Source of the DNA: Nilaparvata lugens
Lineage: Eukaryota > Arthropoda > Insecta > Hemiptera > Delphacidae
Length of the DNA stretch: 64,000 bases
Direction: 5' to 3'
NCBI RefSeq assembly: GCF_014356525.2
Contig: NC_052509.1
Coordinates: 30,150,436-30,214,435, forward strand
The notes below the pieces were generated by a model. It did no database searches and was not told the origin of the DNA. It saw only the letters and a list, made by a program, of their open reading frames with translations. The position numbers and the translations under genes are program-made. Numbering within the stretch: the first letter of the stretch is position 1; each line of letters opens with the position of its first letter. Below, one piece after another: positions 15,419-64,000 of this stretch.

Positions 15419-18277
15419 TTGCCAGTTGAAATAATTTTGGGATGTGACTTCATAGAGCACTCTCAGATCCTTGTGAATTTAATAAGAAAAAACTTTTTCT
15501 TTGACTTCAGTCCTCACTTGAAATTTCCTTTAATTAATAGAGATTTTTCCAACAATTCCGAAATTCAAGTTCATAATATCATGGAGAGACTGGCCCCAAT
15601 GGACTTATCGCATTTGAGTTATTTTGATAGGAGTAGTCTAGAGAAATTGATCAGTAAACACGCAGATGTTCTGACTGAGAAAATTGGATCAACCGATCCA
15701 ATAAAATATGATATTAAATTAACGTCCAACAAGGTTGTCAGATCTCAACCGTATTCTATGAATCCAATCAAGTTGGAATATCTAAGAAAAAAGATTCAAC
15801 AGCTACTAGATGAAGATATAATTGAGCCCTCAACATCGCAGTACTCGTCACCCTGTTTATTGGTGCCCAAACCAACTCCAAATTCTTATCGTTTGTGCAT
15901 TGATTATCGTCGCCTGAATAAGGTAATAGAGTTACAGTCAGCTCCATTAGGAAATCTTCACGAATGTTTTCATTATTTTTCGAATGCTAAGTGGTTTTCG
16001 TGCATTGATTTGACTAGCGCTTATAACCAAATCCATTTGACTGAAAAATCGAAGCATCTAACAGCGTTCATAACACCATTTAACTTGTATCAATTCAAGC
16101 GTTTGCCATATGGAATCAGTTGTGGATCAGCTGTTTTGACCAACTTAATGCAGAAATTGTTTGGTGACTTGCGGTTCAAGGGACTATTTTTCTATTTGGA
16201 TGATTTGATTATATATACTGACACTCTCGAAAATCATTGGGAATTATTAGATGAAGTTTTCTGTAGATTAAAACGATCAAACCTGACAGTGAACCCTCAG
16301 AAATGTAACTTTGCTGCTAACAAAATCAATTTCCTAGGTCATTTGGTTTCTCATAATAGTATTTCGATCGACCCAGAAAGAACAAAACCAATTGTTAATT
16401 TTCCTGTACCAACTAAAGTAAAAGGAATTGAACGATTCTTGGGAATGGTGCAGTTTTTCTCTAAGTTTATCCCCAACTTAGCACAGATTTCAGCCCCATT
16501 GAATGCATTGAGGAAGAAAAATGCGAAATTCATATGGAATGATGAATGTCAAAAATCGTTTGATAAACTAAAACAGATTCTGTCACAGCCTCCGCTTCTA
16601 AAAATGGCTGATTTCAATGAGAAGTTTATTTTGAGCACTGATGCTTCTTCAATTGCAATAGGATGTGTGTTGGGTCAGATGCAAGATGGAGCTTTTGCCC
16701 CAATCGCTTATGCATCACGCACCCTATCACCATTAGAACGAAAATATTCCACCTATGAAAAGGAAACTTTAGCTGCACTTTATGGAGTTGAGAAATTCAA
16801 ATATTTCCTTGAACATACAAAATTCATTCTGAGAACTGACTGTAATGCACTGCAATTTGTCTTGAACCACCCAAAGCAACTTGGTAGGATAGGGAGATGG
16901 GTTCTAAGGTTATCTGCCTTCCAGTTTACTACAGAGCATGTGAAAGGCGTTGACAATAAGGTCGCCGATTGCTTAAGCCGTATGTTTGAAGACTCTCCTC
17001 ACGGAGTAATAGAGCAGAATTTATGTAGTATAAATTTAGTAGATTTCCCACTCAGTTTCACTGATATTTCAACCTATCAGAAGCAGGACGAATTTGTGAA
17101 GGAGATAATGCAATCAGCGAGTGCTGGTAATGATATCTTTCCGTATCAAATAAAAAAGGGAATTCTAGTATGCAATGTTCGAAATTCAACTGAACCAAAA
17201 ATAGTACTTCCCCAAGTTCTAAAATCTATGGTTTGCAAGTATTACCACGAATCTTTGTTTGGCGCTCATCTAGGATATACAAAAACTTTGAATAAAATTA
17301 AACAGGTTTTCACTTGGAAAGGAATATCTAAAGATGTAGGAGTATTCATTAAGAACTGTAAAATATGTGCATTATCTAAACCAGCACAGAAGGCTAATTA
17401 TGGCTATATGGCTTCCAGTGTTGCTTCTTACCCCATGGAGAAATTATTTATAGATTTTGTAGGAAAACTCCCAAGATCTTCTAAAGGTAATTGCATGATT
17501 TTTAGCTGTCTCGACGCTTTTAGTAAGTATTGCTGGCTGATTGCAGTCAGAGAAGCCAATGCTAATACCGTTTGCAATGAACTACAAAGGATTTTCACTA
17601 ATTTCGGTGTACCTAAAATAATAGTGTCAGACAATGGACCACAATTCAAATCTAATATATTCAATAAGTTCTGTTTTCAAAGAGGCATTTTACATGTCAC
17701 GTGTACTCCATACCACCCTCAATCCAACGCTGTTGAAAGAGTACATAGGAATTTGAAATCTGCACTTATTGCATTCTCTTCTCATGACCACACAAAATGG
17801 GATGTACCACTCAGTTGGTTACCTCTAGCATTTAATTGTAGCTTCCATGAAAGTAGTAAGTATACTCCTTATGAGTTGATATTCAGACATAAACCAACTC
17901 ACCCACTCACGAATATATGGGTAATAGATGAAATACTGCCCCAGAAATTCAGTGAAAATACGAGAAAATTGTGGAAACAAGCTCATGAAAACCTCTTAAA
18001 ATCGCAGAGTAAAGCGAAGGAAAGATTTGACTTACAAAGAAGTAGAATCCCTTTCAAAACTAATGATAGAGTTTTCCTGAAAGCTAATCCAATTAGTAGA
18101 GCTGCTGATAAAATTTCGGCAAAGTTAGCACAAAGATGGTCTGGCCCATTCATAATAAAAAAATGGATTTCACCTGTATCTGTAAAGTTATTTTCCATGG
18201 ATGGAAATACATTCATACGACGTGCACATGTATCACAATTGAAATTAGATAAGAGCATTAATACAGGAGACACATAA
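15419..18277 (+). CDS. Gypsy Pol: reverse transcriptase, RNase H, integrase (element 1)
   Basis: An open frame of 952 codons. Near the N-terminus is ILGCDF, the end of the protease. Reverse transcriptase follows at about residues 100-340, with RLCIDYRRLN, the Asp of IDLTSAYNQIH, LPYGIS and FFYLDDLIIY; the catalytic box is YLDD where YIDD or YVDD is more usual. RNase H has STDASSIAIGCVLG and TYEKETLA. Integrase has an HHCC zinc motif (YHE...H...CKIC), then a DDE triad in IDFVG, SDNGPQF and NAVERVH. The C-terminal tail has a basic GPF-type region (RWSGPFIIKK). It makes and inserts the DNA copy. It is intact by itself but cut off from protease by the upstream frameshift. No envelope ORF follows. 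Confidence 0.95.
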   Translation: MPVEIILGCDFIEHSQILVNLIRKNFFFDFSPHLKFPLINRDFSNNSEIQVHNIMERLAPMDLSHLSYFDRSSLEKLISKHADVLTEKIGSTDPIKYDIKLTSNKVVRSQPYSMNPIKLEYLRKKIQQLLDEDIIEPSTSQYSSPCLLVPKPTPNSYRLCIDYRRLNKVIELQSAPLGNLHECFHYFSNAKWFSCIDLTSAYNQIHLTEKSKHLTAFITPFNLYQFKRLPYGISCGSAVLTNLMQKLFGDLRFKGLFFYLDDLIIYTDTLENHWELLDEVFCRLKRSNLTVNPQKCNFAANKINFLGHLVSHNSISIDPERTKPIVNFPVPTKVKGIERFLGMVQFFSKFIPNLAQISAPLNALRKKNAKFIWNDECQKSFDKLKQILSQPPLLKMADFNEKFILSTDASSIAIGCVLGQMQDGAFAPIAYASRTLSPLERKYSTYEKETLAALYGVEKFKYFLEHTKFILRTDCNALQFVLNHPKQLGRIGRWVLRLSAFQFTTEHVKGVDNKVADCLSRMFEDSPHGVIEQNLCSINLVDFPLSFTDISTYQKQDEFVKEIMQSASAGNDIFPYQIKKGILVCNVRNSTEPKIVLPQVLKSMVCKYYHESLFGAHLGYTKTLNKIKQVFTWKGISKDVGVFIKNCKICALSKPAQKANYGYMASSVASYPMEKLFIDFVGKLPRSSKGNCMIFSCLDAFSKYCWLIAVREANANTVCNELQRIFTNFGVPKIIVSDNGPQFKSNIFNKFCFQRGILHVTCTPYHPQSNAVERVHRNLKSALIAFSSHDHTKWDVPLSWLPLAFNCSFHESSKYTPYELIFRHKPTHPLTNIWVIDEILPQKFSENTRKLWKQAHENLLKSQSKAKERFDLQRSRIPFKTNDRVFLKANPISRAADKISAKLAQRWSGPFIIKKWISPVSVKLFSMDGNTFIRRAHVSQLKLDKSINTGDT

Positions 18278-34564: not shown

Positions 34565-36785
34565 ATGGGTAATTATGAACTTGGAGTCATAAGTCTTCCA
34601 AAAAACCTAGTCAAAACAGCATCGAATCCAGAAGACTTGTTCAAAGTGCTGCCACATACTGCCAAGGTGTTTGGAAACAGATTGAGCCTTGTCTCAAGGA
34701 AAGGAGTGTTTCCATACGACTACTGCGATTCATGGCAGAGACTTGTAGAAACATTGCTACCACCCAAAGAGGCATTTTTCAGCAAGCTGACTGATAGGAG
34801 TGTTAGCAGTGATGATTATGAACATGCTGAAACTGTGTGGAACCAATTCAGTTGTAGAACTCTGGGAGACTACAGTGACCTGTATTTGGAAACAGATGTT
34901 CTCCTCTTGGCCGATGTCTTTGAGAGCTTCTGTGATGTATGCATGAAGACTTATGATTTGGATTGTGCGCACTACTTTACATCTCCAGGCTTTTCCTCTG
35001 ACATCATGCTGAAATATACTAAAGTTGAGCTTGAGCTCCTTACTGACTATGACATGTACATGTTTATCAAGCGAGGTATCAGAGGAGGAATAACAAATTG
35101 CATACACCATCATGCAATTGCCAACAACAAGTGCACTGGCGCACCTTGGGATCCAGAGAAGCCTACATCCTATCTGTTATATACAGATGCTAACAACCTA
35201 TATGGTTGGGCAATGTGTCAGCCAATTCCATGTTGCCAATTCCAATGGATGGATAAAGGAGAATATTGGGAGCAGTAACAATAGGTTTTACAGGTTGAGT
35301 GGATAATATGGAGATTGGATACATTCTAGAGGTGGACATTGAATACCCTTCCAACTTGCACAGCGAGCACAATGATTTCCCATTTCTTGCAGAGAACAAG
35401 AAAACGCTCGAATCTAATCATGTACGACTCATGACAACCCTGTCTGATCGCAAACATTATGTACGTCACTACCGCACCCTAAAACAAGCAGTACAGTATG
35501 GGTTGGAGATTAAAAAAGCTCATCAAGGTGTGTGGTTTGAGCAGAAAAACTTTCTAGCATCATACATCATGCTTAATACAAAGCTAAGACAGCAGTCAAA
35601 GAATAAGTTTGAAAAGAACTTTTTCAAACTCATGAACAATGCAGTGTTTGGTAAAACAATGGAGAATGTGCGAAAAAGGATGAGCATGGAGCTAGTGAAT
35701 GATGAGAAGCATTTGAATAAACTGATTGCTCGACCAGTGTACAAGGATCGTATTATATTTGGAGAGAATATTTGCGCTGTTACAATGCATAAAGAGAAAG
35801 TAGAGCTCAACAAGTCAATCTATATAGGGTTATCAGTGCTTGACATCAGCAAAACGTTCATGTACCAATTCCATTATGACATCATGAATCCCATCTACAA
35901 GACTGTCTCCAACTCTTATATCAAGATACTGATAGCTTTTTCTACCTTGTCAAGACAGAAGACATGTACAAAGATATCATCAACAATCAACAGCTTAAAG
36001 ATACCTTTGATACTTCAGAGTACCCTGCTGACCACCCATGCTACTCAGATACAAACAAAATGGTGCTTGGCAAGTTTAAAGAAGAATATGCTGGCCGAGT
36101 GTCACTTGTGTATGTAGGCCTATGATCAAAGCTGTATGCCTGTAGGTGTTACAATAGTGATCCAAATCAGTTGACAAGTGGATTGATAAAAAAAGCTAAA
36201 GGAGTACAGAGACCAATACTTGGGCAGGAACTCTCAAAAATGCATCCAGATGCAGAACATTACATAGTCTTTCAAGACTATCCAGATTGTCTAAATGGTG
36301 ATGAGGATATCTACAGAGAACAAGTGATGTTTGGTACTAGGAAACATCAGATCATGACTCAAGTCATGAAGAAGAAGGCACTGAGCAAAGCTGATGAGAA
36401 AAGGTATATTCTAGATGATGGAATTACAACTCTTGCACACGGACATTACAAGATCCCCACTCCAGCACACAAGGATGAGAAGAAGGATGAGTAGGCAGAG
36501 GAGGAGGAGGAGGAGGAGGAGGATTATGATGTGAAAGAAGAGATGATTGACTCTCAAGAAATTCTCAAGTATCAGGAAGCTAGCAGTACTACAACAGCTA
36601 AACGGTTACATTCCTCATCACATGATAAGCTCATTGATAGAGTCAATGAGTCAGGTAGCAGTACTATCCCCGCTAAACGGTTATGTCCCTTATCAAATGA
36701 TGAGCTCGCTGATATGATCAATGACTATGAAATAGATAGTGATGCATCTCAGTACAGCATTCTGAAAAAATTGATCAAAGACTGA
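34565..36785 (+). pseudogene. Protein-primed DNA polymerase B (Polinton), N-truncated and frameshifted
   Basis: The replicative polymerase of the element. Frame 1 (34565-35278) has an exonuclease motif in YLETDVLLLADVF and polymerase motif A in YTDANNLYGWAM. Frame 2 (35299-about 35915) has motif B in KLMNNAVFGKTMEN. Frame 3 (about 35915-36785) has motif C, DTDS at 35925-35936, then the thumb region to LDDGITTLAHGHY, which is typical of the Polinton polymerase end. Frame 3 is interrupted by TGA at about 36123 and TAG at 36492. The tail (36495-36785) is acidic, with an E-rich run and two copies of an AKRL-S-D-L repeat. Exonuclease I and II are missing, so about half the protein is gone. Confidence 0.93.
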
Positions 36786-44832: not shown

Positions 44833-44976
44833 ATGGTGCTGTTATTTGCAAAGCTGAATCATGTGCTGGATAAGGCTGCTGCAGTACACCCTCCTCCTCC
44901 TACAGAGATACATTCTAAGCCTATAATAGTAGATAATAGAGTGAAGGATGTCATTCAGCATTCAGTCTTACAGTAG
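44833..44976 (+). CDS. Small ORF after the minor capsid gene
   Basis: 47 codons, ATG two bases after the previous stop, with MVLLFAKLNHVLDKAAA and a proline run. Tight spacing suggests the same transcription unit. It may be a short Polinton protein or the start of a gene cut by the LINE that follows. Not recognised. Confidence 0.35.
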   Translation: MVLLFAKLNHVLDKAAAVHPPPPTEIHSKPIIVDNRVKDVIQHSVLQ

Positions 44977-45113
44977 CGCTCGTAGAGTAAACATCTTAGT
45001 AGTTTAGTTTCACTGTAGTGATAGTTTTCAAAACAAGCATTGTTCATCAATAAGTGGGTCACTGGAACATAACCATACAGCAGCTATCTCCATACATCAT
45101 CGTCGTCGGATAG

Positions 45114-46382
45114 ATGAGGTCACCAACCAAACCACCAGATGGACTGATCCCGCAATTCGAGGAGGAGGAAGAAGAGGATAACTTTCCAGGGAACCAAGGA
45201 CTCAAAGTACGAGAACAACCAGGTAAAATGGAAACTGTTGAACAATTATTGCTGAGTGAATTCAACACAGACATAATGAACATGAAGAGTATCTCTTCGG
45301 AATTCAAGGAATGGGCTTCGTCAGAATTTTAAAAAAACAAGGTTTCCAGAGCCGAATATGATAATTTCTTAGAATTAGTTCAAAAATTAGCATTGATAAT
45401 CGTGAAGATAGAAACGAGAGCAGTTACTATTAGCCAAATAAGTGATTCTTCAGGACATCCGAAAATTCATGACTCATTACAGGACTTAAGCAAATCTGTT
45501 CAGGAAATTAAAAATAAAGACAGGCCAATTACTTACGCAGACATGATACAACTACCAAAAAAAGCTACTTCAAGCGATCCACAGTCCAATAATCAAGTCA
45601 GGAAAATCCTTCCAAAAGAACAGGTAGTCTTAATTGAACCCTCAATTTCCACCGGTAATGAGAAACAAGACAGTGAAAAAATAAAAGGAACACTGAAAAC
45701 CAACATCGCGAGAAAGGATAACATTAAAATAAAAAAGACAGTACCCGTTAGAGGAGGAGGTTTACTCATTGTTCTGGATTATCTAGAGGACAAAAAGAAA
45801 TTATTGAAGAATAAAGCTGTAAATAATGATCAAATCAAGATAACTGAGCCCCAAAATAAAAAAACCAGGATAATTGTTTATGATGTTCCATCTGATCTCA
45901 CTAACAAAGAGGTAACTGAAGAAATATATAACAAAAATTTTGTCAATTCAGGAATAGAAAAACCAAAATTTGAATAAGGTTGCAAGCCATCATTCAAATT
46001 AGGGCCGAAAAACAAGGATTCCGTGCATTGGGTAGTAGAATGTGAACCCGAAATTAGGAAAGCAATAATTAATAAGAAAAAAATATTTATAGATATGACA
46101 TCATGTAGAGTTAATGATTACCATGCAGTGCAAAGGTGCTATAAATGTCAAGTCTATGGGCACATCACAAAACATTGTAAAAAGGAAGAAGATATCTGTG
46201 GTCATTGCTCCATCACAGGACACAACATCAAAACCTGCCCTTCAATCGATAAACCTCCAGTATGTTTTAACTGCAAAAGAGCTGATAAACCCTCAGACCA
46301 CAAAGTAAACTATCTAAAGTGTCCCAGCTACGTGAAAGCATTGCAACAATCAATTGATCGAACAAATTATGGAAGTGCTTAA
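45114..46382 (+). pseudogene. LINE ORF1 (zinc-knuckle, Gag-like), two internal stops
   Basis: One frame of about 420 codons with TAA at 45330 and TAA at 45975. It would coat the LINE RNA. The N-terminus is acidic (QFEEEEEEDNF), then a long charged helical region, then a fold with RIIVYDVPSDLTNKEV that resembles the RNA-recognition region of such proteins. Three Cys/His knuckles follow: CYKCQVYGHITKHC, CGHCSITGHNIKTC and CFNCK with a spaced His and Cys. The 45975 stop sits where Gln is expected, which fits CAA to TAA. Confidence 0.85.
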
Positions 46383-46521
46383 AAAGATTAAAAATAGGAT
46401 TGCCAGCTCAAAATCATCAAAATAATTCACAGCATCAAATATAAAAATAGATATTCAAGATTTCCTATCATCTATTAAAAAAACAGAATTAATAAAACAG
46501 TCAGCAAAAAGTAGGACGTCT

Positions 46522-47196
46522 TTGATTTTCAGCTTTGGTCAATATACAGATTTTAATTTATCATTAGCTCGCTGGAATAAAAATAGTTTACATATTTCAG
46601 AAGGCGTTGTACATTCAATCAAGAAGAGAACGCTGAGTCAAGATGAATACAATAGCTTACCTACTGTTTATTCACGGAACGTAAATAATAGCTCAATTCG
46701 TTTTCATCCTGTTGAAAATTCATTGACATTGATATTAGTGCAAAATAATAACAATGAGGCTCAATTAGGTATCCATGACCTCTTACTGGTAATAGACGAA
46801 TATGCATCGATGAATAAATACAACATTACGATTGGAATAGATTCTTTTGATATTGACTCCGAGTTAACATGCTTGGACATTTTAAGTTTAGTAATTAAAA
46901 CTAAAAACCTGAATTATGTATTCTATTACAGAGGAATAAACAATCTGAAGTTCTTGGATATACCACATGAAAACTATGGCTCTGAAGATTGTCCAAAAGG
47001 ATACCTACCGTATGATTCTATTCTTCATGCTTATTTGAACAGTATGATAGAACTCAGGAACCTTATTCAACAGTATGATGTTCTGAATGCAAATTTATAT
47101 AGGGGAGTACTATCATCACTGAATAGTAATATATCTTCTTCAGCAGCATGTATTCAAGAGATAAGGCAAAACGAGATGAACATCTACGACAATTGA
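46522..47196 (+). pseudogene. Unrecognised domain upstream of the LINE helicase
   Basis: About 225 codons, open from a stop near 46512 to TGA 47194. The helicase at 47236 is in the same frame, so this is probably the N-terminal half of one helicase protein of about 600 residues broken by one stop. The first codon of the listed frame is TTG, so the true start is unclear. It has alternating hydrophobic strands and helices (LLLVIDEYASMNKYNITIGI, NLNYVFYYRGINNLKFL) and no Cys/His motif. I do not recognise a family. Confidence 0.55.
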
Positions 47197-47235
47197 CTTA
47201 AGACTTTCCTGTGGCCGACATCCACTACATATCGA

Positions 47236-48327
47236 ATGGGCTTCTGTTTTGAAAATGAAGGAAAATATGTACCCTACAATGAGACAACAAAGTCATTCTT
47301 AACTAAGGAAAAGTATATTCTAGTCAGTAGAGACACCCAAATCATGCTGAATGCTGAGTTGCTGAAGGATATTCTAAAAGTTGACATCACAAATTGTAAG
47401 ATGCCAAAAATAACTTGGATGGATGGAGTTCCAGGGTGTGGTAAAACTCACTTTATCCTTCAGCAACATACACCAGGTAAAGATCTCATTTTGTGTCAGA
47501 CAAGAGCTGAAATAAATGAAATTAGGCAAGAGGTGAATAGAATTCACAAAAATAAATATGAAAGAATAATTAAACAGGATTATAGAACAGTTTCATCTTT
47601 TATAATAAACGGATCAAAAAAGCAGTACAAATGTGTTTTCATAGATGAAGCAGTATTAATGCATGCAGGTTTCGTGGGATTTGTCTCATCTCTCGCTGGT
47701 GCTTCTGAGATTATTCTGCTAGGAGATTCAAACCAAATACCTTACATAGAGAGAAGTAAATTATCAGCTGAATGGTCACACATTTCATCTCTCTGTGAGA
47801 AGAGAATCCATCAAACAGTAACTAGAAGGTGTCCAATAGACGTCTGCTACATCCTTTCCAGCTACTACCAGGACATTGGTACGAAAAATGAGGTCCTGTT
47901 ATCTGTGAGACCTCCAATAGCAAATGGAGAACTTGGACCACTTGAACCTAACACTCTGATTCTTACATTCACTCAGCTCGAGAAGAAAACAGTGCTAGAA
48001 GAGCTGCAATCAAAACTTCACCCTTCAATTAAAGTCCATACAATTCATGAAGCACAGGGCTTAACTCACAAGAATGTAGTTCTGATAAGGAACAATAAAA
48101 AACAACTTGGAATATATAACAGCACACAACATGTAATAGTAGCAATGAGCAGACACACACAAACCTTCAGATATATCACAACAGGGCAAGAAGATTTAGT
48201 GCTGACCCTAATTCGAAAACTGAAGAATGTTAGTGAAGAGTTTCTCTTAAGCTGGAATGAAAGAAACATGGAAGGGATTAATGAGAGTTTAAATAATGAG
48301 CAACAACAACTTATCAAATTTGCTTAG
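47236..48327 (+). CDS. Superfamily-1 helicase of RNA-virus type, in a LINE
   Basis: 363 codons with the full motif set in order: I (Walker A) DGVPGCGKTHF; Ia LILCQTRAEI; II VFIDEAVLM; III ILLGDSNQIPY; IV TVTRRCPIDVC; V VHTIHEAQGLTHKNVVLIR; VI HVIVAMSRHTQTFRY. The RCP-DV, HEAQG-T and VAMSRHT patterns are those of helicases in alphavirus-like positive-strand RNA viruses, not of cellular Pif1 or Upf1 types. It should unwind RNA using ATP or another NTP. It lies between ORF1 and ORF2 and its end overlaps ORF2 by 32 bases. From memory, viral SF1 helicases have been reported fused to ORF2 of some insect R1/TRAS-type LINEs; a separate middle ORF in this LINE group is different. Confidence 0.92.
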   Translation: MGFCFENEGKYVPYNETTKSFLTKEKYILVSRDTQIMLNAELLKDILKVDITNCKMPKITWMDGVPGCGKTHFILQQHTPGKDLILCQTRAEINEIRQEVNRIHKNKYERIIKQDYRTVSSFIINGSKKQYKCVFIDEAVLMHAGFVGFVSSLAGASEIILLGDSNQIPYIERSKLSAEWSHISSLCEKRIHQTVTRRCPIDVCYILSSYYQDIGTKNEVLLSVRPPIANGELGPLEPNTLILTFTQLEKKTVLEELQSKLHPSIKVHTIHEAQGLTHKNVVLIRNNKKQLGIYNSTQHVIVAMSRHTQTFRYITTGQEDLVLTLIRKLKNVSEEFLLSWNERNMEGINESLNNEQQQLIKFA

Positions 48328-51292
48328 CTTCGAGGATCTTGATTATTTTGAAGAAATAAATGATGAAGTGATCAACAACAGTCAACAACTTTGTGCAGCA
48401 TTGAGTTCTTGTGATTTGAGCATCTTCTGTCTCAATATAAGGAGTATGAGAAGAAATTTTGATGAGCTGATGATTCAATTGTGAGACATTAATTTTTCTT
48501 TTGATGTTATTATTCTAACCAAATGCTGGATTAGGACTGAATGTGTACTCCAGTCCATTCGAGGATATGATGTATTTTCCACCATAAACAACCCATTACA
48601 AAATGATGGTGTAGTTGTTTATGTTAAAGATAGTATAAATGTACAATGTGTTGAGCTACATATTAACCAGGCAAATGTCCTACATATTCGGTTGGATGCA
48701 GCAGACAAAAAGTGGAGCATCCTTGCAATATACAGATCACCGTCCTTCAATGATATTACAGATTTCCTGAGTGACTTAGAATCGATCCTGAATGAATTAA
48801 GAGGGCAACAAGTCATATGTGCAGGAGACATGAATATTAACACCCTTCAAATTTGTCCACATCATCAATTGAATGACTACTGCGATCTTCTAAGCGAGCA
48901 TGGGCTCAGACTCTGCATCAAGCAAGCAACCAGAACTACAACAGAAACTGCTTCTTGCATAGATCACATTGCTACCAGCTCCAGAGATAATCTTTTTCCA
49001 ATCATTTATGAATCAACAATAACTGACCACTTCACCACAATTCTAGGAGTGCAACATATTTCGAGAAATAGTGCAAATGAAACTGGAACACGTGAAATAA
49101 ACGAGAAAATAGACATTAATAGCTTGAAGAATGAACTACTGAATGAGGAGTGGATTCATGTTTTAGAAGATAATAATCCAGATACATCTTATGACACCTT
49201 CTTATCAACTCTGAGACAACATATACAAAATAATATCAAGCAGCATCGGCGGCAGAAGAAGTACAAACCCATCAAACCATGGATCACCAGAGGTATAGTA
49301 GCAGCAATAAGAACCAGAAATCTACTCAACAAAAGAAGAAAGGAAGACCCAAACAACATTAACTTAACCAACTTCTATCGTCGGTATAGGAATACACTCA
49401 CAGCTTTAATTCATGAAACAAAGGACCAATACTATAGAGAGAAATTGTATGAAGCTGGAAAGGATAATAAAAAAATGTGGAAAGTAATCAAATATGCTAC
49501 TGACTCTAAATCAAAAACAAAAATGAAATTGAATGCTATTAGAATAGATGATAGGATTTTCAATCTAAAGGAAAATCCAGAAACTGTGCTCAACCACATG
49601 AATAACTTTTTCACAAATGTAGGTGAAGAAATGGCGGAGACAATAATAGATTCCTTAAGAAAACCACTAGACCAAATCATATCCCAATATAAACCTGTTA
49701 CAAGAACTCTACACTCCATCTACTTTCACCCAGTAACTGAAGATGAGCTTCTTGAAGCTATTAGTAGTTTGCGAAATGACAGTGCTCAAGGACTTGATGG
49801 AATCAATAATAGAACATTGAAGTCGATAAAAAATGTAATTGTAAAATCATTAATTCACATATTTAATTTAAGTCTGTCAAAAGGAATTTTTCCAAAAGCT
49901 ATGAAAGAGACATGTGTTAGACCATTACATAAAGAAGGCGACAAAACAAATGCCACCAATTACAGGCCTATTTCACTTATAAGCAATATTTCTAAGATTT
50001 TGGAAAAACTGGTAAAGAAACGTCTTGTGAATAACATGGAAAAAAACAACTTAATATCTAGGAATCAATTTGGTTTTCGTGAGGGGAGGAGTACAGAAGA
50101 TGCGGTATTAGAATTGTCAAATTTTGTCACAGATAAGCTAGAAAATAACAAAAAATGTGCAGCAGTGTTCCTGGACCTAGCAAAAGCTTTTGACACTGTT
50201 AATCACAGTTTGCTGCTGAAGAAATTAGAAGTCATGGGAATTAGAGGAGTTCCTCTAGCATGGTTTAGATCATACCTCTGTGACCGGCGTCAAAAAGTCA
50301 AAGTTGAAGAACATCTCAGTTCAGAGGAAACAATGAAGTTTGGGATTCCCCAAGGAACAGTTCTTGGGCCAATTCTGTATTTGGCATATGCAAATGAGCT
50401 ATGTTCAATTAAGATAAGAGGAAGAGTAATAGCTTTTGCTGATGATACGTGTATACTATTTGAAGGAAACACCTGGGAGGGAGTTTTTAATCTTGCACAG
50501 GAAGAATTGATCAAAGTCGATAAATGGTTAAGAGAAAATTTGCTTACAGTAAATGCAACAAAAACGAAATTTTTAGCCTTTTCTCTGACAGAACGGACGA
50601 GACCACCGGATTCTTCAATAATCCTGCATCACTGTGGAAGCACCAACAACCCGTGTGATTGTCCTTCAATTCAACAAGTCAATGAAATAAAATATTTAGG
50701 AACAATAGTAGACAACAAATTCAAATGGGACAAGCACATTAATCTATCAATTACCCGGATCAGGAAGCTTCTCTACAAATTCTATCAACTCCGTAAAATC
50801 CTCAACTATGAGACATTAAAAACTGTTTATTTTTCTTTAGTGCAATCAATTTTAAGATACATCATAATTATCTGGGGAGCTACAAATTTTACACATGTTG
50901 AACCTCTCTATAAACTTCAAAAACGAATACTAAAAATAATAGGCTTCAAGGAGAATCAATGCCCCACGAACATTCTTTCCAAGGACAGTAAAGTACTGAG
51001 TGTAAGACAACTCTACATCCAGGCTATCATCACGCGAATGAGAAGAAACAACGAACACATAAGACTGGCAGATCATAACCATCAAACAAGGCAGAGAAAC
51101 ACATATTCAATAGTACCAAGGATGAACACTACATTTGGGCAAAGAAACTACACATATTTGGGACCAAAAATTTATAATTCAATACCAAGTTACATTAGGG
51201 AAGAATTCAATAGACACAGGTTCAAGAAAAGTTTATATTTCTGGTTGGTTGATATTGGAGTGGAAAATTGTGGAAATTTAGTTAGACTGTGA
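48296..51292 (+). pseudogene. LINE ORF2: APE endonuclease and reverse transcriptase, one internal stop
   Basis: About 998 codons, starting at an ATG inside the helicase end in the next frame, with TGA at 48482 as the only break. The endonuclease has FCLNIRSMRRNFDEL, then after the stop ILTKCWIR, AIYRSP, CAGDMNIN, SCIDHIAT and TDHFTT. The reverse transcriptase has GLDGINNRTL, NYRPISLISNISKILE, NQFGFREGRSTEDAVL, FLDLAKAFDTVNH, GIPQGTVLGP and catalytic FADDT. The C-terminal part has an HHC-CDC Cys cluster and no RNase H domain. It nicks the target DNA and copies the RNA there. The frame from 48485 to 51292 is fully open. Absence of RNase H and the C-terminal type fit the CR1/Jockey group. Confidence 0.93.
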
Positions 51293-51539
51293 ATATTGAA
51301 ACTATTTATTCTTCATTCCACTCTTTACTGTTTTTCATTTTACTAAAAATAACCTTTCTTATTATTATCCTCAATAGAACATTAATATTTATTCACTAAT
51401 TCCATAATTTTGTTTGTTTGTATTATACATTTTTATTAATTTTATTATAAAAAACTTTAATCCCATATCAGTGAATGAAGTTTGTAAATAGTAATTATTA
51501 CACACAATAAGCAACTAATTACTTATACCCCAACACATA

Positions 51540-51577
<38 letters not shown>

Positions 51578-51926
51578 TTATTCATTGAAATTATCATTTA
51601 TTCATTGTTGAAACACCGCTGATTTATGTAGTTATATTACAATACTATATTAGACCTATCAATATTCTAATGTTGCATTCAGTCTTCATTGTAATTAATA
51701 AGTTTTCATAATATGTGAAATTTGTTGCATAATTTGCTGTTGTACTGTAATTTATTGTAGATTCGTGTATGAACCAGAATGTATTGTAACTTACTTGAAT
51801 AAATAAAATTAGAAAAAAAATAAAATTTGAAAAATTTGAAAAAAAATTCAACCTTGACAAGGTTAACATTGAGGAGCATTGAGTATTTGCAAGAACGAGG
51901 CTGTCAGATATGAGCAGAATAGGAAG
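51293..51926 (+). other. LINE 3' untranslated region, (TA)n run and Polinton junction
   Basis: AT-rich sequence follows the ORF2 stop, with a pure TA run at 51541-51572 and A-rich words near 51800-51850 that likely mark the LINE tail. From about 51850 to 51926 lies sequence just upstream of the Polinton major capsid ATG. Confidence 0.7.
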
Positions 51927-56689: not shown

Positions 56690-58667
56690 TCTGGGATGCC
56701 AGTGTTAGATGTTAAAATTGGGGTAATCTCTACCAATGAGGTTCTAACTGCAATAAGAGCTCTGAAGTCTGGGTGCTCTGAGGGCCCTGATGCTATACCA
56801 ACTTTCATTGTCAAGGGTTGCGCAGAAGTTCTTATAATGCCTTTGAAGTTTATCATGAATTTAGCTGTGAAAACTGGTAAATTTCCCCAGAAGTGGGAAA
56901 CTGCAAGAATTACTCCTGTTTTCAAATCTGGTAAAAGAACCGATATAATAAATTATAGGCCAATTTCAATTTTGAATTGTTTCTCAAAAATTTCTGAAAA
57001 AATACTACATTCAAATATATTTATGCAGGTCAGGAGTGTCATACCAGAGGAGCAGCATGGTTTTTTACCATGTCACTCAACAGTGACTAATCTTATGACC
57101 TTCAGTGATGGAGTATCCCAGGTACTGGACAATGGAGGTCGTGTAGATGTTGTTTACACCGATTTGTCCAAGGCTTTTGATACTATCAGCCATAGGTTGA
57201 TAAAGCTTGGACTGATGGGTTTCAGTGATAGCCTTGTCAATCTTCTGCAGAGTTATCTACAGTCCAGGACGCAATTTGTTAAAATTCTCAATTTTAAATC
57301 AAAATCATTCATATGTTCATCTGGAGTACCTTAGGGCTCCAACCTTGGGCCTCTCTTATTTCTCCTGTACATAAATGATGATCCATCAGTTATAAAGAAT
57401 TCTTCCTGTCTCCTTTATGCAGATGATGTGGAATTGTTCAAGGAGATCAAGAATGTTGATGATACATTTTATTTACAGGGTGATATCAATAATTTTTTTC
57501 ATTGGTGTGAAACTAATGGACTCAGGTTTAATGTTTCAGAATGTGAATTCATGAGTTTCAATCATCAACTCAACCCTCAAATAAATGTGGATCATATAAG
57601 TGACAGTCCATTGGAACAGGTAAGATACTTCAAGGACCTTGGAGTTCAATTTGCTTCTGATTTTTCTTTCAATACACACATTGATTGGATAGCTACTATG
57701 GCAAATCAGCAAATGGGTTTCATGCTGAGAACCTGCTCATCCTCTAATGATGTCTTGCCTCTGATATTAATTCACAAGTCACTTGTGAGAAGTCTGCTAG
57801 AATATGCTTCAGAGATATGGAGCCCATATCATGCAGACAGAGTTAGTGTACTGGAGCAATTGCAAAATAAATTTTTTAGATTCATGTTTTACAAGAAATT
57901 CAATTACTATTGTCCATTAGATTTTCCAACTGAGTCACTGAGAAATTTATTTCACATTAAATCTTCAAAAGTAAGGCGTGATGTCAGAGCACTCATTTTC
58001 CTCTTTGGTCTCCTGAATAATGAAATAGATGCACCACATTTACTATCTTAGTTGAATATATATGTATCACCTGTGGCTTGACATTCTGATTTTTCATTCA
58101 TGGTTCCCCGCTCCAGAACTCTAAGAAACTATCACTCTCCCCTGAATAGAATGCAGAGAATTTAGAATAATTTAACGGGGCAACTAGATGTCTTCTGGTT
58201 TTCTCGTGCTAGATTCCACAAAGTTTTATAAGCTAGTATGGTTTAGGTGGATGTCAACAATATCTTTTGGATGCATGGGTGTGGCTGTGCACATGGTTTG
58301 GGGTGAGAGGTACAGTATTTTGTTATTATTTATATAAGAAGCTCTGATCATATTTTGATTCAATCGTTGTTTTTTTTTTTTCAATTTTGCATTTATCAAG
58401 TTTTTTTCTCTTCTTCAACTAGATTACAAGTTTTTGTACTCATTGTATTTTTTTGTCATTTTCTTCTTTTTTTTATACATTAATTTTCCTATTAATATTT
58501 TTCTTATTATTATTATCAATAATATTATAACAATTTTTCCTTTTTTTTAATCTCAATATTGTATTGTACAAATATGTAAAGGAGACAGATTTGGTGTGAC
58601 CCCCATTGTCTCCATTTATGGATGAATAAATAAATAAATAAATAAATAACTGAATAAATAAATAATT
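56690..58667 (+). mobile_element. CR1/Jockey-group LINE, 5'-truncated, with GAATAAATAAA tail
   Basis: Starts within the reverse transcriptase and ends in a run of AATA units (58622-58667), the typical LINE tail. It cuts off the Polinton major capsid gene at its left edge. Only one stop codon interrupts the ORF, so the copy is fairly young. No target duplication was identified. Confidence 0.85.
56696..58051 (+). pseudogene. LINE reverse transcriptase, one internal stop, no endonuclease
   Basis: One frame of 452 codons with TAG at 57332 where Gln of the P-Q-G box is expected (CAG to TAG). Motifs in order: GPDAIPTFIVKGC, ITPVFKSG, INYRPISILNCFSKISEKIL, EQHGFLPCHST, VYTDLSKAFDTISH, GSNLGPLLFLLYIND, and catalytic YADDVELF. 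The thumb and a C-terminal region with HKSLVRSLLEYASEIWSPY and LEQLQNKFFRFM follow. The endonuclease is absent because of 5' truncation. This family differs from the helicase-bearing LINE upstream. Confidence 0.92.
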
Positions 58668-59507: not shown

Positions 59508-61084
59508 TTTTTTTTTTTTTGCCAAATTCACTTTTTTGGGAGAAGTGCGATGGAGATGGGTTCACCTCAGGGGAATACGAGCTGTTTACAATGGTGACCT
59601 TAACATCAAGTTGCTGACCATCAGTCTGGCCACCATTGTTGAAAAGGGAGTGGCTTTTTGGTTTGAACTGGTCGTGGTATCTCGTACATCTGCCTTACTG
59701 ATGTACGCCACGACGTTGATGCTGTGTCATGAAGTTTTCTTGATGTGAGCTGAATGAAGTCAATCAGTTGGGGAGTGGAGACATATTCATAGAGTAGCCT
59801 ATTGTTCACTGTGTAGTGGAAGTTGCAGATGGTTCTTATGAGTTTGTTTTGAAGGCCAAATAGTCGTTTTCTATTGGTCTTTGATAGGTATGGGAACCAG
59901 ACAGAGGCGGCATAGGTCATGTATGCCCTGATGATAGCTGTGAATATGAGCAGCCGAAACTTCAGGGGGAAAGAGGGAGTGATAAAAAGGGGGAATAGTT
60001 GTCCAAACAGCACACGCCAGTGTTGTATTTCCACGTGAATGTGTTGTTTGAAGGTAAGGTTTCTGTCCAGAGTAACACCTAGATACTTGACGGTGGGGGA
60101 CCATGGCAGGGCGTGGCCATGGATTGGGAGAGTGGGAGGAAGTTTACATTTTCTGGAAAAGGCGACAGCCACGCATTTATTTGCATTTATCTCTACTCTC
60201 CAGGATGAACACCAGGATATGAGCAAGTTCAACTGCTCTTGAACATTCCTGGCCGCCCTCTCGAGATTCATGCTGCTGGAGTGGAAAGTGGTATCGTCTG
60301 CGAAGAGACTGGTTTGAACTGAAGGTAGAGCTGGCATGTCGTTGATGAAAAGGGAGTGGAGAATAGGACCAAGCACAGATCCTTGGGGGACACCTGCTGT
60401 TGATGGGGTGAGCGCTGAAGAAGCTATTGAAGAGGGGGTACGGATTTGGACTTGAAAATACCTATTAATAAGGTATGACTTGAAGAGTCTGACTGTTGGG
60501 GGTGGAAAGACAGATGAAAGTTTATAGAGAAGTCCATCCAGCCACACAGTGTCGAAGGCTGCTTTGAAGTCTATAAAGACTTCAGCCACGTGCTCTTTCT
60601 TGTTGAAAGAGTCTGATAATTGAGAGCAGAATTTCATTAGTTGCAGAGTTGTTGAACAACTTGCACGAAATCCAAACTGCTCTGGCCTTTTTTGGATTGG
60701 TATTTTTAAGTGCGGTTGTTATATCCCCCATTGTGAAGAATGGGAGGTTATTTGGTGTTTGGTCTTGAACTGTTTCTGATACACTGTCGACTATTCTATT
60801 AAAGTGGGAGTTGAGCTCTCGACTATGGGGAATGGGTGGGTTTGAGAAGTGAATTTGGAGGTGGGAGGCAAACTCATCCACTTTCTCTTGTTCTGAAAAG
60901 ATAAGCCCATTTGGGCTCTCAAGTGGTGAGGTTGGGGGTTGTTTCCTGAGAAGTTTTTGGGTAGCTTGCCAGGCTGAGTGGGATGGCAAAGATGTTAGAT
61001 ATTCTTCCCAGGATTGCAGGCGATGTCCTACTCCTTGCAGATCAACTCCTTTTATAGCCGCCAGTTTAAGATCCCCAGTCACTT
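59508..61084 (-). mobile_element. Jockey-type LINE on the minus strand, 5'-truncated, internally deleted
   Basis: The element reads leftward and ends in a poly-A tail, seen as T13 at 59508-59520. It holds only ORF2 sequence. An internal deletion near 60637-60690 removed the first reverse transcriptase motifs. The 5' end is lost near 61084, where a T-rich region begins. Confidence 0.85.
59621..61082 (-). pseudogene. Jockey-type LINE ORF2, reverse transcriptase with internal deletion
   Basis: The upstream part (61082 down to about 60690) is the linker before the reverse transcriptase, including LKLAAIKGVDLQGVGHRL, FSEQEKVDEFASHLQ and ITTALKNTNPKKA. About 110 residues holding the first palm and finger motifs are then missing, with a frame change. 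From about 60690 the frame gives EQFGFRASCSTTLQLM, VFIDFKAAFDTVW, GVPQGSVLGPILHSLFIND and catalytic LFADDTTF, then thumb and C-terminal region to a stop at 59621. No RNase H domain is seen. It cannot work because of the deletion. Confidence 0.9.
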
Positions 61085-62174
61085 ATTTTCCATTTATTCC
61101 CGATTATTTTTCATTTATTCTCAATTTGTTTTTTTTTTTGTTTTTTTAAATTTTGAATTTCTTCTTATTTTTTTTTTAATTTTTAAATTCTTTCTTCAAT
61201 TTTCATTTATTTATTTTTTTTTTATTATTATTTTTTTTTAATTTTTTTTTTTATTTAAAAAAAAAAAAATTTTTTCTGACCTGAGAGAACTTGAGGTTAG
61301 GTTTGGTCGACTTGGGTGACCTTGAGGTGAAGGACAACTCTGGCACACTTGTGTGCCAGAGTAGCCCTTTCTATACTACTAATGATAACAACTCCTGTAA
61401 TAGTTGTTAAAATATTAGAGAATTTATTTATTCAAAAAAAATTATATTCATCAAGAAATATTTTTGTCTATGTTATTTTATGGGAATATATTTTGTGTTT
61501 TATGTCAGCATACAAAGATTCTAGAAGCTTTTATTATTTCCCTAATTAATCTCATGATATACAGTTTGAGCTGTCTTGGTACCAACCATTCTTATTCTGT
61601 CGCATATATAATCAGTGAATTAATTAATATTGATCTTATTCAGAGTACTTATTACTTATCATCCTTTGATGATAGTAATACTATTCAGCCAGCAAAATCT
61701 TACTGATATTTATATTGATAAGTCTACAATATATCATATAAGGATCCATGTAAGTCTCAAGGGATTTCGAAAGGATAAATTAGTGCATAATTCCCTGTAT
61801 TCATGACGAGCGTTTTAAGGATCAACTAGAAAAACCATAGTTGATTTTCATTATTCTCGATTAAGTATATGGTTACTGATAATCAGTCACTATCTCTTTG
61901 ACTTCCTTATTGGTAATCTTCAATATCTTCACGAGAGCAGCGGTAAGAATATTATTGATCATCAGTTATTGAAACCCATGGTGGTTCATTACATTCATGC
62001 ATCTACTACTGAGCTGGAGCTGTGGTCTGACCCCAGCATATTTGCAAGCCGGATGGCCTTAACTCTTTGCAAATTTATTTCCAAGCTAGAGATATTAACA
62101 GCTACACTAGTATATATCAAATATACTCTTTTATATAAGAATGTCGCCCAATATGGATGGCAATATACCGCTTC
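61085..62174. other. T-rich and anonymous DNA, no supported gene
   Basis: 61085-61275 is dominated by T runs with an A run at 61256-61269. After that, a possible hairpin pairs GGCACACTTG-TGTGCC at 61342-61359. The rest to 62174 has only short shadow ORFs. Confidence 0.5.
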
Positions 62175-64000
62175 ACAACATTTGAACATTTGAACATTTT
62201 AACATTCAAACATTTGAGCATTTAAACATTTGAACATTTAAACATTCAAACATTTGAACATTTGAACATTCAAACATTTGAACATTCGAACATTTGAACA
62301 TTTAAACATTAAACATTTGAACATTTGAACATTTGGACATTTAAACATTTAAACATTTAAACATTTAAACATTTAAACATTTAAACATTTAAACATTTAA
62401 ACATTTAAACATTTAAACATTTAAACATTTAAACATTTAACATTTAAACATTTAAACATTTAAACATTTAAACATTTAAACATTTGAACATTTAAACATT
62501 TAAACATCTAAACATTTAAACATTTAAACATTCAAACATTTAAACAGTTAAACATTTAAACATTTAAACATTCTAACATTTGAGCATTTAAACATTCAAA
62601 CATTTAAACATTTAAACATTTAAACATTTAAACATTTACTCATTTGAACATTTCAACATTTAAACATTTGAACATTAAAAAATTTAAACATTTAAACATT
62701 TAAACATTTAAAGATTTAAACATTTAAACATAAAAAATTTAAACATTTAAACATTTAAACATTTAAACATTTAAACATTTAAACATTTAAACATTTAAAC
62801 ATTTAAACATTTAACATTAAACATTAAACATTTAAACATTTAACATTTAAACATTTAAACATTTAAACATTTAAACATTTAAACATTTAAACATTTAAAC
62901 ATTTAAACATTTAAACATTTAAACATTTAAACATTTAAACATTTAAACATTTAAACATTTAAACATTTAAACATTAAACATTTAAACATTTAAACATTTA
63001 ACATTTAAACATTTAAACATTTAAACATTTAAACATTTAAACATTTAAACATTTAAACATTTAAACATTTAAACATTTAAACATTTAAACATTTAAACAT
63101 TAAACATTTAAACATTTAAACATTTAAACATTTAACATTAAACATTTAACATTTAAACATTTAAACATTTAAACATTTAAACATTTAAACATTTAAACAT
63201 TAAACATTTAAACATTTAAACATTTAAACATTTAAACATTTAAACATTTAAACATTTAAACATTTAAACATTTAAACATTTAAACATTAAACATTTAAAC
63301 ATTTAAACATTTAAACATTTAAACATTAAACATTAAACATTTAAACATTTAAACATTTAAACATTTAAACATTTAAACATTTAAACATTTAAACATTTAA
63401 ACATTTAAAATTTAAACATTTAAACATTTGGACATTTAAACATTTAAACATTTAAACATTCAAACATTTAAACATTTAAACATTTAAACATTTAAACATT
63501 TAAACATTTAAACATTCAAACATTTAAACATTAAACATTTAATCATTTGAACATTTGAACATTTAAACATTCAAACATTTAAACATTTAAACATTTAAAC
63601 ATTTAAACATTTAACATTTAAACATTTAAACATTTAAACATTTAAACATTAAACATTTAAACATTTAAACATTTAAACATTATACATTTGAACATTCAAA
63701 CATTTAAACATTTAAACATTTAAACATTCAAACATTTAAACATTTAAACATTAAACATTTAAACATTTAAACATTTAAACATTAAACATTTAAACATTTA
63801 AACATTAAACATTCAAACATTTAAACATTAAACATTTAAACATTTAAACATTTAAACATTTAAACATTTAAACATTTAAACATTTAAACATTTAAACATT
63901 TAAACATTTAAACATTTAAACATTTAAACATTTAAACATTTAAACATTTGAACATTTAAACATTATAACATTCAAACATTTAAACATTTAAACATTTAAA
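62175..64000. repeat. 8-bp satellite (CATTTAAA)n, at least 1.8 kb, runs off the window
   Basis: Almost pure tandem copies of CATTTAAA. Variants are CATTTGAA and CATTCAAA, and seven-base copies lacking a T or an A. Variants are dense in the first 450 bases (62175-62700) and rarer further in. There are no unique spacers. Confidence 0.98.

Follow-up and report, generated by a model that had tools for sequence, protein, structure and literature searches.

A LINE of Nilaparvata lugens with three genes, one of them bearing an SF1 helicase of viral type

The window analyzed here, a 64,000-nucleotide stretch of Nilaparvata lugens DNA, very probably holds a dead copy of a LINE with three genes: ORF1, ORF2 and, between them, ORFX, which unites an N-terminal domain with an SF1 helicase derived from a virus. 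LINEs usually have one or two ORFs. Positions 47236-48327 of the forward strand, open for 363 codons as first described, encode a complete alphavirus-like SF1 helicase, and chance is excluded as an explanation. The Pfam model PF01443 (Viral_helicase1) matches the protein at 2.5e-41 and 142.4 bits (cut-off 21) over model positions 3-228 of 228, and the tomato mosaic virus helicase (3vkw) aligns over residues 39-337 at 7.8e-37, the Tobamovirus replicase helicase being the nearest solved relative. The viral SF1 motif set is complete and in order, in agreement with the preliminary description, which had reported all the helicase motifs in alphavirus-like succession. What we take to be motifs I to VI lie on the forward strand at 47425-47448 (I, GVPGCGKT), 47485-47514 (Ia), 47635-47652 (II, VFIDEA), 47716-47748 (III, LLGDSNQIPYI), 47824-47844 (IV, RRCPIDV), 48034-48063 (V) and 48136-48159 (VI). 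Unlike Tobamovirus and virga-like replicases, such as those of tomato mosaic virus (3vkw) and Atrato virga-like virus 1, this helicase is encoded by a retrotransposon, and neither a methyltransferase nor an RNA polymerase was found alongside it. Scans of IMG/VR confirmed no viral relatives, and Rfam gave no match on the 64-kb window.

The whole copy occupies about 6.85 kb of the forward strand (44962-51815), with limits set from 20 other loci of the same family, termed family A: 14 of them start to align with the window at 44958-44965, and 18 stop at 51799-51844. Its three genes lie in three forward frames, each keeping to one frame throughout. ORF1 (45114-46382, +; 422 codons) is gag-like and carries three zinc knuckles at 46137-46322 (+), of the forms CX2CX4HX4C, CX2CX4HX4C and CX2CX8HX6C; the Pfam zf-CCHC match is weak (0.034, under its cut-off), and the zinc-knuckle protein is presumably RNA-binding. 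ORFX (46369-48327, +) starts at an ATG at 46369 that overlaps the end of ORF1 by 14 nt, and comprises a conserved domain of about 190 amino acids with a helical segment (46426-47193, +), followed by a pre-core region and the SF1 core (47197-48327, +). The helicase is the C-terminal part of a larger protein. The 363-codon frame at 47236-48327 does lie between ORF1 and ORF2, as had been claimed, but it is only the last piece of ORFX, whose native gene has 644 codons in open copies; its final codons exist because the window copy lost the stop that other copies use. ORF2 (48296-51292, +; 998 codons in open copies) encodes an APE-type endonuclease and reverse transcriptase, with the endonuclease motif LTECWI at 48515-48532 (+) and the reverse transcriptase motif FADD at 50435 (+). 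ORFX and ORF2 overlap by 8 nt in open copies and differ in frame, with ORFX upstream, which upholds the earlier view that the helicase has an ORF of its own within the LINE. In Pfam, an 866-residue piece of ORF2 matches RVT_1 at 8.6e-39 and the endonuclease at 6.2e-05, the latter under its cut-off. As regards LINE group, ORF2 has endonuclease and RVT_1 while RNase H is absent by Pfam at E <= 1, which agrees with the original assignment to LINEs that lack it.

At its 3' end the LINE carries AATAAATAAA, to which many other copies add a tail of TTTGAA-type repeats (ends inspected in 15 loci). A candidate target-site duplication, GCATTCAGTCTT at 44958 and 51675, was rejected, since most other copies match past 51675 to about 51.8 kb; of 500 first-order Markov controls, 26 reached at least 12. 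A search of the window copy and 15 further loci for target-site duplications gave nothing convincing, which leaves insertion through the LINE's own machinery without a direct trace.

The window copy belongs to a recent family. A helicase search of the 1.085 Gb assembly, in which 112 of 1060 candidates were scored, yielded at least 113 matches, and these fall by identity into 91 at 76-100% (family A, that of the window, one match being a 22-residue fragment), 17 at 56-57% (family B) and 5 at 55% (family C). The 20 whole family A loci compared were the best-ranked, leaving out the window and one locus near a contig end. ORF1 sequence precedes and ORF2 sequence follows the helicase in 20 of 20, the loci having been chosen for possessing a helicase; 13 match the window nearly end to end in one piece, and the rest are truncated, rearranged or gapped. 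The preliminary description had named two outcomes that would undo its reading. The first, that the helicase occurs in this one copy only, is excluded by the number of matches; the second, a separate viral fragment with junctions of its own, is excluded for the loci compared by the flanking LINE ORFs. Open frames are found for ORF1 (422 codons) in 9 of the 20, for ORFX (644 codons, from the ATG equivalent to window position 46369) in 8, for ORF2 (998 codons) in 5 and for all three in one. Locus L044 is a tandem in which a 5' fragment of the LINE runs directly into a second copy, and its open ORF1 sits in the upstream fragment.

Family A copies are 99.5-99.8% alike (median), and the window copy is 97.0-98.8% like them. 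Its five in-frame stops, two in ORF1 (45330 and 45975), two in ORFX (46423 and 47194) and one in ORF2 (48482), are private: at the two ORF1 sites all 17 comparable copies have a sense codon, at the two ORFX sites all 18 do, and over the five sites every one of the 17 or 18 copies compared per site is sense, with one gap. The endonuclease motif reads LTECWI in 17 of 18 other copies (one gap) and LTKCWI in the window, an E-to-K change. Because of these five stops and the altered endonuclease residue, the window copy is, as judged from its sequence, a dead member of the family.

Linkage of helicase and LINE extends beyond the loci picked for comparison. When the assembly was approached from ORF2 (52 matches, from 49 of 55521 ORF2 candidates scored), a helicase match lay less than 3 kb upstream on the same strand for 35 of the 52, and in 22 of these the aligned parts lie exactly 160 nt apart. 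It had been suggested that one ask whether ORF1, helicase and ORF2 always travel together; in many copies they do, but 17 of the 52 ORF2 matches, some copies giving two, have no helicase match upstream, and these may represent 5'-truncated or unscored copies. Families B and C, each examined through one copy read in pieces (A being L041, B L051 with L053, and C L052 with L054), both show ORFX followed by an overlapping endonuclease-reverse transcriptase ORF2, frameshifted in the C copy; in the B copy the first ORFX codons lie in a different frame from the remainder. The C-terminus of ORF1, with similar last residues, precedes ORFX in family A and in the B and C copies, as LQQSIDRTNYG in A, LQQLIEKTNYG in B and LQQVIDRTNYG in C.

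Further relatives come from a protein database, which holds 20 ORFX-type proteins of 633-669 amino acids including the query (homologs P0003 and P0010-P0028), with both N-domain and helicase. P0028 is 95% identical to family C and may come from the same or a close species; relatives with named hosts are P0006, a shorter protein from the planthopper Laodelphax striatellus, and P0009 from the leafhopper Homalodisca vitripennis. The helicases of P0005 and P0007 form a branch apart from the ORFX group (support 1.00), and their sequences perhaps mark another helicase-bearing lineage of insect LINEs. Size-matched contigs in other assemblies were also considered, with three exact pairs between 24 helicase proteins (the 27 without that of the window, minus P0006, P0008 and P0009) and 120 listed of 511 ORF2 proteins. 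One such contig (3495 b) is too short for both ORFs, and the eight contigs of at least 4900 b contain two size matches, for which the simulated chance, computed after the matches were known, is about 0.5%. As proof of ORFX-ORF2 linkage these contigs were dropped, since two supposed pairs give conflicting trees, through either exchange or a false link.

Viral helicases in LINEs have a literature. In TRAS (R1-clade) LINEs of Lepidoptera, an SF1 helicase forms the C-terminus of ORF2 (Lazareva et al. 2015, PMC4686597), and a 2017 paper describes viral SF1 helicases in Jockey-type LINEs, as ORF1, arguing in its text that they are independent of the TRAS case (Morozov, Lazareva, Solovyev 2017, PMC5563155). 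Its hosts are Nilaparvata lugens, with dozens of sequences, Homalodisca, Gerris and Ceuthophilus, that is, Hemiptera and Orthoptera. The novelty implied by the preliminary description, which mentioned R1/TRAS cases only, is therefore lost to the 2017 text. Like the LINEs of that text, ours has an SF1 helicase ORF just 5' of, and overlapping, an endonuclease-reverse transcriptase ORF2, dozens of copies and a hemipteran host. Unlike them, as there worded, it has a separate 422-codon zinc-knuckle ORF1 upstream of the helicase, a further conserved domain at the N-terminus of ORFX, and an ORFX/ORF2 overlap of 8 nt. A term search of the paper's text returned CCHC once, in a general sense, and neither "three ORFs" nor "N-terminal"; in open-licence PMC literature we found neither a three-ORF layout nor a macro-like domain in print for helicase-bearing LINEs. 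The separate ORF1 is a departure from the published wording and not from the kind of element. Relative to the 2017 text, though its Figure 4 might show more, what is new is the separate zinc-knuckle ORF1 and a conserved N-domain with a weak replicase fold match, together with three co-resident families, measured constraint and a mismatch between ORFX and ORF2 distances. Compared with TRAS/R1 LINEs as published, the likeness is a tobamo/virga-like helicase captured by a LINE, and the difference is that here it has its own ORF ahead of ORF2, in another frame, rather than forming a C-terminal ORF2 domain.

Purifying selection on the helicase, which the preliminary description had proposed to look for, is seen between families. 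With one copy per family, and dS set infinite from 0.74, pS is 0.74-0.82 in each region (ceiling 0.75), which puts the silent sites close to saturation. The corresponding pN values are 0.28-0.30 (helicase), 0.39-0.40 (N-domain) and 0.27-0.41 (ORF2). Retention of 55-57% identity in the helicase despite near-saturated silent sites is the ground for the claim. Between A and B, helicase and ORF2 are each 57% identical (pN 0.28 and 0.27); between A and C the helicase is 56% and ORF2 42% identical, a gap that may reflect different histories. On these sequence comparisons, constraint on the helicase is roughly equal to that on the endonuclease-reverse transcriptase protein. Within family A, where counts are small, biased to good helicases and stripped of codons with more than one difference, helicase singletons comprise 9 replacement and 8 silent changes (per-site ratio 0.31) and N-domain singletons 21 and 6 (0.93); the singleton ratio is 0.63 for ORF2 and 0.31 for ORF1, and helicase changes shared by copies number 3 replacement and 1 silent (0.82). 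In part these counts tell against constraint. Because these copies were picked by helicase score, the selection claim rests on the comparison between families.

How far ORFX and ORF2 share a history is less straightforward. The ORFX tree (23 sequences) unites A, B, C and P0028 with an SH-aLRT of 97 and makes A and B sisters at 87; a topology joining A to C is also compatible with the data (p-AU 0.167), and a helicase-only FastTree puts A nearer C than B (0.94). The ORF2 tree, built from 18 hand-picked of 119 sequences of at least 850 residues and with a shorter part for the C copy, makes A and B sisters (100), joins C to P0034 and P0046 (100) and rejects A with C (p-AU 2e-53). For these sequences, the two trees do not clearly disagree on how A, B and C branch, yet they do in the ratios of distances: ORFX distances are 1.38 for A-B and 1.43 for A-C, against ORF2 distances of 0.81 for A-B and 2.19 for B-C. 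The mismatch hints that LINE lineages have exchanged the 5' part, which would account for it; a change of rate may be an alternative source. Since the divergences are not proportional, ORFX and ORF2 were perhaps not always inherited together, and the comparison of constraint is weaker for A-C and B-C.

The N-terminal part of ORFX is 26-38% identical to 20 intact homologs. A structure model of the domain (pLDDT 72.9) resembles virga-like replicases weakly in fold, and a macrodomain identity is no more than a lead. We tentatively extend this to a fuller proposal, which we would put somewhat short of an even bet: that ORFX is a multi-domain piece of a virga-like replicase captured whole (N-domain, perhaps a worn macrodomain; pre-core region; SF1 core), which is now a third obligatory LINE gene read by stop-start reinitiation and has been swapped as a 5' cassette between LINE lineages.

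Most likely an ancestral LINE took up the helicase portion of a virga-like replicase, probably together with adjacent sequence, and has kept it as a gene of its own. One LINE RNA with three overlapping genes would be read in three steps, ribosomes that stop at the ends of ORF1 and ORFX restarting at the overlapping start codons (overlaps of 14 nt and 8 nt); stop-start reinitiation is cited for other dicistronic LINEs in the 2017 text (PMC5563155). The ORFX protein would join the LINE RNP in cis. There, powered by NTP, it would unwind either LINE RNA that is structured or double-stranded or the RNA:cDNA hybrid, aiding reverse transcription by an ORF2 in which no RNase H was detected. We consider helicase work in the LINE RNP the likeliest role of ORFX, at about even odds; the details described above suggest a maintained working part and not a stray viral fragment.

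The main rival to a helicase role in the RNP in cis is that ORFX mainly suppresses RNA silencing: by binding or unwinding small RNAs and LINE RNA in double-stranded form, it would shield the LINE from siRNA and piRNA control. Tobamovirus replicases, to which the closest solved helicase belongs, are reported as silencing suppressors in the 2017 text (PMC5563155), and the homologous helicase of a Plutella TRAS element showed weak suppression in plant leaves, according to the texts of both papers (PMC5563155, PMC4686597). The protein assayed came, however, from another LINE group, and in ORFX the helicase motifs are kept, though binding alone might not need all of them; we regard suppression as the main function as possible but unlikely. 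Some function other than these two is a poorer prospect still. A use to the host, for example defence against related viruses, was put forward by the discoverers in the texts available (PMC5563155, PMC6338049) as a reason for such helicases being kept, but what is conserved here is not a single host gene: the conservation runs across LINE families that have diverged and have many copies, which makes the idea improbable. That ORFX is a passenger, copied with the LINE and of no use to it, would sit well with the fast-evolving N-domain (pN 0.39-0.40, singleton ratio 0.93) and with a text by the discoverers in which such helicases are given no more than an accessory function (PMC6338049). The low helicase pN beside near-saturated silent sites speaks against this, as do 640-codon frames that stay open in proteins only 40-53% identical (predicted proteins, a selected set), and we think it very improbable. 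Finally, a piece of an RNA virus that was reverse-transcribed and landed by chance in the window LINE copy would account for a sequence of viral type, but is hardly credible and was rejected, given LINE ORFs on both sides in every locus compared (chosen by helicase), no separate junctions seen, and overlapping junctions common to families B and C.

A third LINE gene of viral-replicase origin, constrained like the endonuclease-reverse transcriptase, would offer a direct means of finding out whether RNA helicase activity is limiting for reverse transcription of LINEs or for their escape from small RNAs. The published placement of the helicase is refined, from ORF1 to an ORF of its own, and family A is recent enough, at the median similarity given above, to allow expression and small RNAs to be studied in live insects.

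The LINE looks to sit inside a decayed Polinton/Maverick- or adintovirus-like element (34565-56250), the name of the element being our inference. On one side of the LINE lie two DNA_pol_B_2 pieces (34565-36117), on the other, at about 55.97-56.25 kb, part of a double jelly-roll capsid gene; a stretch of retrotransposon gag and protease, from 53538 to about 55.9 kb, also falls between them. Elsewhere, an LTR-retrotransposon pol at 15419-18277 keeps reverse transcriptase, RNase H and integrase in a single 952-codon frame, and further reverse transcriptase fragments match RVT_1 at 56696-57334 (+; 2.8e-10) and 59621-60637 (-; 6.5e-25). The last part of the window, 62001-64000, has a GC content of 17% and a strong GC skew, and from 62177 to the window end at 64000 it contains about 231 copies of the 8-mer AACATTTA.
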